Assembly (NCBI RefSeq): GCF_001620055.1
Contig: NZ_LQGY01000040.1
Span: forward strand, 1-64,000
Direction: 5' to 3'
Origin: Agromyces sp. NDB4Y10
Lineage (GTDB): Bacteria; Actinomycetota; Actinomycetes; Actinomycetales; Microbacteriaceae
Length of the DNA stretch: 64,000 bases
Under the pieces are notes generated by a model. The model worked only from the letters and a program-made list of their open reading frames with translations, searched no databases and was not told where the DNA came from. Shown one piece after another: positions 45,236 through 54,015 of the stretch. The position numbers and the translations under genes are program-made. Numbering within the stretch: position 1 is the first letter of the stretch; each line of letters begins with the position of its first letter.

Positions 45236-45940
45236 ATGTCCCCCATTTCGCCACCGCGCGCGACACGGTCGACCGAGCTGGCGATCGCCGCCATCGCCGT
45301 GGTGGCGGCACTGGTGCTGACCCTCGCGTTCGCCGACCTCACGCGCCGCGTCATCATGCCGACGTGGGTGCAGGTCTCGGGCGCGTACCTCGCGGTATGG
45401 GTGCCGCTCGGCGCGGCCGTCGCCGTGTCAGCGCGGCGGAACCCGGTGCGGTGGCGCCGCCTGCTCCGTATCACGCCGCTCGACGTGCTCCTCGGCATCG
45501 GCATCGGCCTGCTCGCCCGCGCCACGGCGACCCTGATCCAGGCCGGCCTCACGGGCGTCATGCCGGGAGGCGGCATCCGCCTCGAACTCGACCCGGTCAC
45601 CTGGTGGGTGGGCCTGCTCATCGCACCGGTGCTGCTCGCGCCGCTCGTCGAGGAGCTGTTCTTCCGCGGACTCACCCAACCCGCCGTCACCGACGCCGCC
45701 CGCGCGGCCGGCAGCCGACCCCGCGCCGCCGCGGCCACCGGCGTGGTGGTCGCCGCCGCCGTGTTCGCGCTCCTGCACACGCTCGACGCCGCCACCCCGT
45801 CGGGTGCCTGGACCGTGGGGCTCAGCACCTTCGTCCTCGGCTGCGCGGTCGGCGCGCTCGTCGCGACCACCGGTCGTCTCGGGGGTGCGATCGTCGCGCA
45901 CGCCGTGTTCAACCTGACCCTCGTGCTGCTGCTGATGTGA
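45236..45940 (+). CDS. CPBP family intramembrane metalloprotease
   Basis: 234 residues with about seven helices and the three motifs of the CAAX/Abi protease family: EELFFRG (near residue 139), FALLHTLDA (second motif with His) and HAVFN at the end (third). Known relatives process prenylated proteins or act as bacteriocin-immunity-type proteases; the substrate here is unknown. The start codon is set by the leaderless -10 box; an upstream GTG-type extension to 45179 is not supported. Confidence 0.9.
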   Translation: MSPISPPRATRSTELAIAAIAVVAALVLTLAFADLTRRVIMPTWVQVSGAYLAVWVPLGAAVAVSARRNPVRWRRLLRITPLDVLLGIGIGLLARATATLIQAGLTGVMPGGGIRLELDPVTWWVGLLIAPVLLAPLVEELFFRGLTQPAVTDAARAAGSRPRAAAATGVVVAAAVFALLHTLDAATPSGAWTVGLSTFVLGCAVGALVATTGRLGGAIVAHAVFNLTLVLLLM

Positions 45941-51878: not shown

Positions 51879-53981
51879 TCAGAACAGCATGGTGGGTGAT
51901 GCCGCCGCAAGGCCGGAGGAGGGGGCGGCGGTTCGCCTCGGGGCCGTCGATGCCACCCCGCCCGTCACGACGTCTTCACGGCCGCGCTCGAGCCGGTGCG
52001 CGCGGAGCAACGGCCGCATCCGCTCGGCCAGCCAGGCACGGTACTCCTTCGGCGCATAGGCGCTCGCCCCCGGGTACATGGCGCGATAGCGGTCGACGAG
52101 ATCCGGGTGCTCGCGCGCGAGCCACGAGAAGAACCACGGCTTGACCGACCCCCGCAGGTGCAGCGCCGAGTAGACGAGCCTCGTGGCGCCGGCCGCCTTC
52201 GCCCGGCGGACCGCCTCATCGAGGTGGGCTCGCGTGTCGGTCAGGTACGGCAGGATCGGCATCAGGAACACCGAGCAGTCGAAGCCCGCCTCACGCGCCG
52301 CCGTGACCGTCGCCAGCCGTGCCGCAGTCGTCGGCGTGCCCGGCTCGATCGACCGCTGCACCTCGTCGTCGTACACGGCGATCGACATCGCCAGGTCGAT
52401 GGGCACATGCTCGCGCGCCGCCTGCAGCAGCGGCAGGTCGCGCCGCAGCAGCGTGCCCTTGGTGAGGATGCTGAACGGCGTGCCGCTCGATGCGAGCCCG
52501 TCGATGATGCCCGGCATGAGCGAGTACCGCCCCTCGGCACGCTGGTAGGGGTCGGTGTTGGTGCCGAGCGCGACCGGTTCGTGCTGCCACGACGGCCGCA
52601 CGAGCTCGCGCTGCAGCACCTCGGCGACGTTGACCTTGACGATGATCTCGCGATCGAAGTCATCGCCCGCGTCGAGGTCGAGGTACTCGTGCGTCGGCCG
52701 GGCGAAGCAGTTATGGCTCACGACTCCGTTCGCGATGAAGTCGCCAGTACTCGTCGTGATGTCGAGCAGGTCGAGTTCCGCCCCGAGCGGTTCGACGGAC
52801 ATCACCCTCAGGTCGGCATGGGTCTTGACGGTCGATCCGATGATCCCGCGCTTCCGCGAGATGGCAGGCTGCGTCATCCCGAAGAAGCGCTGGCGTGACG
52901 GTAGGCCTCCTCGAAGCCGGACCGAGTACACCCCGTTCGGCGCGGGCCCCCCCAGGACGGCATCGAAGCCGAGCTCGGCCAACGCGAGGACGGTCGCCTC
53001 CAGCATCGTCTGGTTGCTGTTCGAGATCTGGACGATCCCGCGCGAGTTGGATCCCTCCGCGTCGAAGATGCCGGCCAGAAAGCCGGCGCGCCACGCGGCT
53101 GAGGGATCGGCCGGCCAGGCGATCAGGGCGCTGATCTGCTGGTAGTGCTGCCGACTGCTGGTTCGGATCGCGCGCATCGGCCGGCGATTCGTCGCCCCTG
53201 TGGAGAACACGAACTCGGTGGTCCTCACGCCGAAGTGGCTGAGATACGCCCCGGTGCGCTCGAGCGCCTCGTCATCGCAGAGCGCGAGGCGGAATCGGTA
53301 TGCCCGGTACGTCTTGTCGCTCTTGCCGGTTCGCGGATAGTCGCGTTCCAACATCATTCCGTCACCGCGCACCATGCCGGTCAGGTATCCCAGCCGGTAC
53401 TCGTCTGAAACGTGATCCGCGAATTGCGGCGAGGGGCCCACCCCGAACCCGATGAGCGAGTTCCCGGTGGTCAGGTGCGGTCGCCGATCAGTCCCGTTCA
53501 TTGCGCCGGTCACGTACTTCCAGCCGCGTTCAGTGAGGAATCGGTGATCGCCGCTCGCCACGATCGTCGTCCCGTCCGCGAGGCGGATGCGGTAGGCGGG
53601 CTTGCGCGTCGACCACTTCGCCAGCACGGTCGATGGGGTGTACTTGCGGTATCGACCCACACGAGTCGTTCCCACCAGGACGTCGCCGACCTCGACATCG
53701 CGCAGCGGTCGGTTCGATCCGTCGGCGAGGGTGATCGACGTGTCGGGGTCCAGGCAGTAGGCGCATGCGTGCTGGCAGCCCCGGTAGGGGTTGATGGTCC
53801 AGCCGAACGGCACGTAGGACTGGCCGGGCACCTTGTTCAGCGCCGACTTGGCCAGCACCTCGTGGAACGTGACCCCGGCGAACTCCGGCGTCTGCACCGA
53901 CCTCACCAGGTTGTTCAGGCGCGCGAGGCCCGGCAGCGTGCCCTGCTGCTCGACGCCGAGCTCCTGCGTGTTCCACCTCAC
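51879..53981 (-). CDS. Rv2578c-type radical SAM protein interrupted by an intein
   Basis: 700 residues as translated. Host sequence: GQSYVPFGWTINPYRGCQHACAY, then, after a 349-residue insertion, CFARPTHEYLDLDAG. The joined product would carry the [4Fe-4S]-binding Cys-x3-Cys-x2-Cys (CQHACAYC), followed by EPVALGTNTDPYQ and DYxxTRAHLDEAV-like radical SAM barrel features; unspliced, the third cysteine is the first residue of the intein. Mature length 351 residues, as expected for the family. The start is GTG 53981 (VRWNTQELG); GTG 53999 falls within a LexA box. Function unproven; related to DNA repair genes by regulation. C-terminal 40 residues look poorly conserved. Confidence 0.9.
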   Translation of the reverse strand: MRWNTQELGVEQQGTLPGLARLNNLVRSVQTPEFAGVTFHEVLAKSALNKVPGQSYVPFGWTINPYRGCQHACAYCLDPDTSITLADGSNRPLRDVEVGDVLVGTTRVGRYRKYTPSTVLAKWSTRKPAYRIRLADGTTIVASGDHRFLTERGWKYVTGAMNGTDRRPHLTTGNSLIGFGVGPSPQFADHVSDEYRLGYLTGMVRGDGMMLERDYPRTGKSDKTYRAYRFRLALCDDEALERTGAYLSHFGVRTTEFVFSTGATNRRPMRAIRTSSRQHYQQISALIAWPADPSAAWRAGFLAGIFDAEGSNSRGIVQISNSNQTMLEATVLALAELGFDAVLGGPAPNGVYSVRLRGGLPSRQRFFGMTQPAISRKRGIIGSTVKTHADLRVMSVEPLGAELDLLDITTSTGDFIANGVVSHNCFARPTHEYLDLDAGDDFDREIIVKVNVAEVLQRELVRPSWQHEPVALGTNTDPYQRAEGRYSLMPGIIDGLASSGTPFSILTKGTLLRRDLPLLQAAREHVPIDLAMSIAVYDDEVQRSIEPGTPTTAARLATVTAAREAGFDCSVFLMPILPYLTDTRAHLDEAVRRAKAAGATRLVYSALHLRGSVKPWFFSWLAREHPDLVDRYRAMYPGASAYAPKEYRAWLAERMRPLLRAHRLERGREDVVTGGVASTAPRRTAAPSSGLAAASPTMLF
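52710..53756 (-). mobile_element. Intein with LAGLIDADG homing endonuclease
   Basis: 349 residues from Cys1 (CLDPDTSITLADG, block A) to the terminal His-Asn (LDLLDITTSTGDFIANGVVSHN, blocks F/G), with Cys as +1 residue. Block B is GTTIVASGDHRFLTERG. Two LAGLIDADG-like helices, YLTGMVRGDG (acid Asp) and FLAGIFDAEGS (acid Asp/Glu), mark a two-motif homing endonuclease. All splice-junction residues (Cys1, block B His, penultimate His, Asn, Cys+1) are present, so protein splicing is likely functional. Confidence 0.92.
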
Positions 53982-53990
53982 CCAGCTATT

Positions 53991-54004
53991 CGAACACACG
54001 TTCG
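53991..54004. promoter_or_regulatory. LexA (SOS) box
   Basis: CGAACACACGTTCG fits the Gram-positive LexA consensus CGAAC-N4-GTTCG exactly and lies 10 bp upstream of the preferred start of the radical SAM gene. It is embedded in a larger TTCGAA-6-TTCGAA palindrome (53989-54006). Confidence 0.8.
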
Positions 54005-54015
54005 AACCGAGGGCA

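Follow-up and report, generated by a model that had tools for sequence, protein, structure and literature searches.

An intein that interrupts the iron-sulfur cluster motif of a radical SAM protein raises the question of whether it is a working selfish element, a relic in a dead gene or a device that regulates its host. Such an intein is found in the window (the whole 64,000-nucleotide stretch of DNA analysed here), in a gene of the Rv2578c family that is present as a single copy in the genome of this Agromyces, a soil actinobacterium. The locus comprises the following features.

51879–53981, minus strand: gene of the Rv2578c radical SAM family, interrupted in frame by the intein; 700 codons and a stop, starting with GTG at 53981
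53757–53981, minus strand: N-extein; 75 residues, C-terminal end NPYRGCQHACAY, with cluster cysteines 1 and 2 (C69 and C73)
53763–53765, minus strand: codon of Cys-3 (C73, the second cluster cysteine), candidate redox-trap partner of Cys1
53754–53756, minus strand: codon of the catalytic Cys1 of the intein (C76 of the precursor)
52710–53756, minus strand: intein; 1047 nt or 349 residues, C1 to N349, precursor residues 76–424
52872–53405, minus strand: LAGLIDADG homing endonuclease part, about intein residues 118–295 with limits taken from the structure model; contains D132 and E234
52707–52709, minus strand: codon of Cys+1 (the third cluster cysteine)
51882–52709, minus strand: C-extein, the remainder of the radical SAM domain (PF04055); 276 residues (425–700)
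53990–54005, no strand assigned: perfect LexA/SOS box TCGAACACACGTTCGA, separated by 8 nt from the downstream start codon (GTG, 53981)

The precursor reads NPYRGCQHACAY/CLDPDT at the N-side junction and VVSHN/CFARPTHEY at the C-side junction (a slash marks the point of insertion), and the intein lies between Tyr75 and the third cluster cysteine. The Cx3Cx2C motif is split just before this cysteine, which is the +1 residue, exactly where the first-pass annotation had placed the junction; its coordinates for the intein, 52710–53756 on the minus strand, are likewise exact, and its change from a 700- to a 351-residue product is right (700 − 349 = 351) given translation from the GTG at 53981. The residues of a class 1 intein that it had claimed are all present, namely C1, the block B His (H71), H348-N349 and C+1. 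Block B consists of S68-G-D-H71, with Ser at the textbook Thr position, so that it does not read TxxH; this Ser is common to 98 of 99 full-length relatives. Against the NCBIfam model NF038136 the whole precursor scores 763.5 bits (cut-off 700, residues 1–664 aligned), a value that chance would not produce, and the earlier statement that inteins of this kind are already known in actinobacteria is correct. The window intein is a member of an already curated class and, on its own, is ordinary for that class.

The AlphaFold2 model of the intein alone has a mean pLDDT of 94.0. Its best matches in the PDB, PI-PfuI and PI-SceI, extend over the whole length with TM scores on the query of 0.31–0.38, the two domains being set differently, and the endonuclease part resembles I-DmoI (TM on the target about 0.65–0.75). 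Both LAGLIDADG acids, D132 and E234, are intact on their two helices within this endonuclease fold, in agreement with the full homing endonuclease described earlier, and the Pfam match to PF14528 corresponds to the second endonuclease repeat. The window intein has Cys at position 160 and Asn at 237, where most full inteins have Ala and Cys; each of these states occurs in 2 of 99 full inteins, the window intein included.

In the precursor the third cluster ligand would be out of place until the intein is excised. Excision would proceed by the steps of established intein chemistry: an acyl shift at Cys1, transfer to Cys+1, cyclisation of Asn349 and a further acyl shift that would join Tyr75 to the cluster cysteine. 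The product would have CQHACAY joined to CFARPTHEY and the Cx3Cx2C motif restored, and the earlier claim that splicing would be needed to rebuild the motif fits an intein that parts it ahead of the third cysteine. Splicing in vivo and DNA cutting by the endonuclease are predicted.

We compared 119 distinct inteins from the Rv2578c-family site, 99 full and 20 mini; some loci represent the same gene collected twice, and distinct counts are used where relevant. C1, the block B His (H71), the block F Asp (D332), H348 and N349 are found in 99/99 full and 20/20 mini-inteins, and D132 and E234 are each retained in 98 of the 99 full inteins. The first-pass annotation would have been contradicted by intein-free homologues without the junction cysteine. 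None was found, the cysteine being present in 123/123 intein-free rows, but the extraction pattern required the host cysteines, and their presence in all rows is therefore not an independent count. The pattern failed at 10 of 234 loci, and among those inspected there was no alternative residue at the junction: three (L088, L102 and L109) are one frame-broken copy in an Agromyces genome (G027), L086 and L215 have broken frames, L104 spans the gene of L086, L107 retains no more than a degraded remnant, the sequences of L089 and L108 are fragmentary, and L142 carries a prophage-type insertion. L142 (G545:C28:161700-173000), from another family of the order, is split by an element of about 8.7 kb within the HACVY codons, adjoining the intein site; the element encodes a serine recombinase, with phage relatives at about 40% identity. 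In L088 (G027:C1:92400-96000), from a single-contig genome, the reading frame is interrupted within the endonuclease part; sequencing error, decay and the beginning of a split intein would all account for this. Five of six full-to-full pairs have a dN/dS of 0.11–0.23 in the endonuclease part, and the sixth, whose members are almost identical, has 0.056; this purifying selection, like the recent transfer in another genus described below, is indirect evidence for the predicted cutting of the empty allele.

A match to the host family was obtained in 59 of 60 Agromyces genomes, in 56 of them above the family cut-off. The 57 distinct rows usable for a tree comprise 37 intein-free alleles (one of them, L087, a diverged second copy), 15 with a full intein and 5 with a mini-intein; broken or partial copies from three genomes (G027, G031 and G050) were left out. 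The extein tree requires at least 16 changes of intein presence, as compared with a mean of 16.6 for shuffled labels, so that carriers are no more tightly clustered than this, and the distribution within the genus is patchy. The five mini-inteins differ in length (154–196 residues). Three are nearest to a full intein, with 90–94% identity over the shared part, and the remaining two, L065 and L071, are each other's closest relatives, followed by the full intein L066, and retain different remnants. Because lengths, nearest relatives and remnants differ, the endonuclease has been lost repeatedly. In one genus (g209 of f38), all 12 sampled genomes among the matches listed have a span of 1395–1398 bp that fits a mini-intein, and four of the 12 sequences were inspected; here an endonuclease-free intein is apparently fixed across the genus (e.g. 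L255, L266, L276 and L277).

Distances between inteins and between exteins are correlated (Mantel r 0.67, with none of 2000 permutations as high), and 44 of the 46 close pairs have an intein-to-extein dS ratio no lower than 0.75 (median over pairs 1.67), from which it follows that much of the inheritance is vertical. Each of the two alignments nevertheless rejects the tree of the other (AU p 9e-5 and 1e-3), and one pair, from Microbacterium sp. MYb45 and M. oxydans (L163/L164), has an intein dS of 0.023 against an extein dS of 0.249, the mark of one recent transfer of the intein in Microbacterium; the second-lowest ratio is 0.48. With tree conflict and a single low-dS pair among 46, transfer is real, not rampant. 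Phages and plasmids were considered as carriers and rejected, since 50,697 phage and 72,556 plasmid records held no close copy of the window intein at E 1e-5; the matches numbered one and three, with best identities of 26% and 30%. The phage Samy was likewise rejected as a rival for the intein site: a sequence matching its att repeat with 1–2 mismatches was located 139 nt upstream of that site in each of 10 loci. A short contig in a Stenotrophomonas assembly (L190, JACEFY010000027.1) carries an actinobacterial-looking copy of the gene and is possibly a contaminant.

Relatives of the intein were found in other hosts. A profile built from 39 Rv2578c-family inteins, using intein residues only (A2), was scored against 97 loci, of which 56 (49 distinct) reached 101–540 bits; all of these have a Cx3-6Cxx/ junction, and they belong to several radical-SAM-type families. 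Below them are L297 (100 bits), the SNF2-type intein L304 (93), L299 (79) and the remainder, at 56 bits or less, a ceiling that also applies to generic actinobacterial inteins (the best 30 loci of a longer PF14890 list from 198 genomes; the eight that were scanned have DnaB, DnaE, GyrB and SufB as hosts). In a tree of 56 inteins, the 14 generic ones are set apart (SH-aLRT 98), and the SNF2 row falls among the radical SAM rows. After removal of four rows, namely the SNF2 row and three outgroup rows that were long or gappy, 41 radical SAM inteins, counting the DUF1848 host as a putative radical SAM protein, were separated from 11 others with supports of 100/100 and in 100% of 200 bootstrap trees, in an unrooted tree whose outgroup is one phylum plus one viral row and in which both QueE rows form long branches joined to each other. 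The inteins of PA0069-family proteins nest among those of the Rv2578c family (inner supports are mixed), which suggests one jump between the two families; the direction and number of jumps between families are an inference.

A search of viral contigs with the intein sequence gave 24 relatives. The 17 strongest (L280–L296, 15 distinct) lie before the third cysteine of a radical-SAM-type motif, and the seven weakest are off the motif (two endonuclease pieces, one in a DnaB-like host and four others). The 15 distinct viral precursors match PF04055 in 11 cases (six below the gathering score), DUF5131 in two and DUF1848 in one, with no host domain in L284; L296 is a QueE (221.5 bits, cut-off 206.1), and the DUF5131 protein L289 weakly matches the radical SAM mobile pair A model (53.1 bits, cut-off 355). 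The two endonuclease pieces, L297 and L299, belong to the lineage, lack a splicing domain and follow a TKIEW start that, by eye, seems to resemble DUF5131 proteins. A viral outgroup search seeded with the DnaB-type intein L301 returned only L301. The Virus Rctr197k protein (L304, KX853510.1:17420-24472) is annotated as radical SAM-like, but was not counted as such because Pfam finds only Hint and a sub-threshold SNF2 match (21.7 bits, cut-off 24.9); the label may derive from its intein. Among Actinomycetota, 35 of 346 genomes matched the intein at E 1e-10. Their hosts include six proteins assigned by sequence to the PA0069 family, two of which were scanned and scored 448.5 and 468.7 bits (cut-off 360), a QueE (L329, 309.2 bits) and a DUF5131-like protein, L328, which scores 66.9 bits on the mobile pair A model (cut-off 355). 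A few weak matches are in other hosts, L338 and L339, which share a C-extein and presumably represent an anaerobic ribonucleotide reductase, and L340.

These data suggest that the lineage inserts before the third cysteine of Rv2578c, PA0069, QueE, DUF5131 (related to mobile pair A), DUF1848, SPASM-type and other radical SAM or radical-SAM-like proteins. We favour, with some reserve, a single lineage in bacteria and viruses that targets the radical SAM cluster motif rather than one gene and whose inteins carry a Cys-3/Cys1 pair, so that oxygen-sensitive splicing could be built in across the superfamily; the position of the SNF2 protein inside the group and the 7 of 24 viral relatives off the motif count against it. 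This motif-specialised lineage is what is new relative to the first-pass annotation.

Upstream of the gene, the sequence TCGAACACACGTTCGA agrees without mismatch with the LexA/SOS consensus, and a further in-frame GTG, at 53999, lies within it. It is the only exact match in the window, where up to two mismatches give nine matches against 3.85 expected, and one of two in the 3.3-Mb genome, where a reversed control pattern gives none. The other exact box (L235, G000:C22, around 45544–45559) is upstream of an ImuA' open reading frame (NF058630, 177.5 bits). With one mismatch allowed, the genome contains 61 matches as compared with six for the control pattern, and inexact matches are therefore not evidence by themselves. 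The box at this locus is exact and its position conserved; in loci taken as Streptomyces, the best match is often weaker (three mismatches). According to a study in Streptomyces venezuelae, the radical SAM gene vnz_31145 is bound by LexA and rises 19.97-fold with mitomycin C (PMC9380542). This gene is probably an orthologue, or at least a member of the same family as the Rv2578c host gene, and LexA probably controls the host gene in this species. A 2026 paper calls the link of Rv2578c-family members in Streptomyces to the DNA-damage response speculative (PMC12924846). The conserved box and the pairing with imuA' in this genome argue that the family takes part in that response.

The box had been singled out earlier because it was combined with an intein, and the two could be read as one functional unit, in which DNA damage would induce the precursor and splicing or homing would be timed to repair. 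The perfect box only 8 nt from the start and the genome's sole other exact box, upstream of imuA', favour such a unit, and RecA inteins likewise sit in an SOS gene. The combination nevertheless turns out not to be special. In 236 distinct loci surveyed with up to two mismatches in the expected 130-nt window, the box was found in 198, including 100/118 intein-free alleles as against 79/98 with a full and 19/20 with a mini-intein, and a control window inside the gene contained it in 1 of the 234 loci having such a window. Since alleles without an intein have the box as often and in as good a position, it belongs to the host gene, and we regard the functional unit as highly improbable. That the intein fails to splice and the gene is a pseudogene is scarcely credible. 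Relatives do include broken copies, with the frame lost within the intein in G027 and near the intein start in L215, but the window frame is open through 700 codons with its splicing residues complete, and the extein dN/dS is 0.11 in L001/L078, the sole pair computed with the window allele.

A redox gate is a further alternative to consider, in which a disulfide between Cys-3 and Cys1 would block the first splicing step under oxidising conditions, so that an oxygen-sensitive enzyme would mature in a reduced cell. MoaA is a radical SAM enzyme. In the MoaA intein of Pyrococcus abyssi, a Cys-3/Cys1 disulfide is described as controlling activity (PMC3922620) and as stopping the splicing of an oxygen-labile enzyme under oxidising conditions (PMC10663303). 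The redox pair there is Cys-3 and Cys1, whereas the first-pass annotation had stressed Cys+1. The window protein has both cysteines (C73 and C76), Cys-3 occurs at the junction of each of the 49 distinct high-scoring inteins, and Cys1 is missing from one alone, the QueE intein L329, which has Ser. Cys-3 is, however, also found in intein-free alleles (the extraction pattern required it), and because it is retained anyway as a cluster ligand it cannot be taken as a sign of selection for a switch; members of the lineage have the pair because the site always puts a cysteine at −3. The patchy presence of the intein among close relatives also speaks against a switch that is needed. The AlphaFold model of the precursor is poor at the junction (pLDDT below 50 for residues 68–72). 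On balance a redox gate in this protein appears unlikely.

From the computed anatomy, conservation, lineage, patchy distribution, recurrent endonuclease loss and single recent transfer, we hold with high confidence that the insertion is a complete class 1 intein, able to splice and with its LAGLIDADG endonuclease intact, a selfish element of a motif-specialised lineage that has moved among alleles and, in the longer term, among radical SAM families. It would persist as a selfish element in a LexA-box gene because the DNA at its site encodes a cluster cysteine that does not vary. To our knowledge, the field describes inteins as bound to a single site of a single gene family; the members of this lineage instead have in common a short cofactor motif, found in distantly related proteins of a superfamily. 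If the lineage is real, oxygen-sensitive splicing could be inherent to the inteins of a whole enzyme superfamily, and its members provide a natural series for asking whether redox trapping as in MoaA is a general property or a side effect of the insertion point. No inteins at radical SAM cysteines besides that of MoaA were found in the literature searched, which includes PMC3322345, PMC3655853, PMC11437467 and PMC11208441 and mostly excludes subscription journals.

Compared with the NF038136 class, the window protein has the same host family and the same order of parts and differs in nothing essential. The actinobacterial DnaB, SufB and RecA inteins likewise combine a Hint domain with a LAGLIDADG endonuclease; of their hosts, SufB serves iron-sulfur assembly and RecA the SOS response. 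The DnaB and SufB inteins are in other hosts and score 56 bits or less on profile A2 (best 30 generic loci), and those of DnaB, DnaE and SufB are on the far side of the 100/100 branch from the radical SAM inteins. The P. abyssi MoaA intein, compared here through its description in two reviews (PMC3922620, PMC10663303), shares with the window intein the N-extein Cys-3 and the catalytic Cys1, but belongs to another enzyme family and another domain of life.
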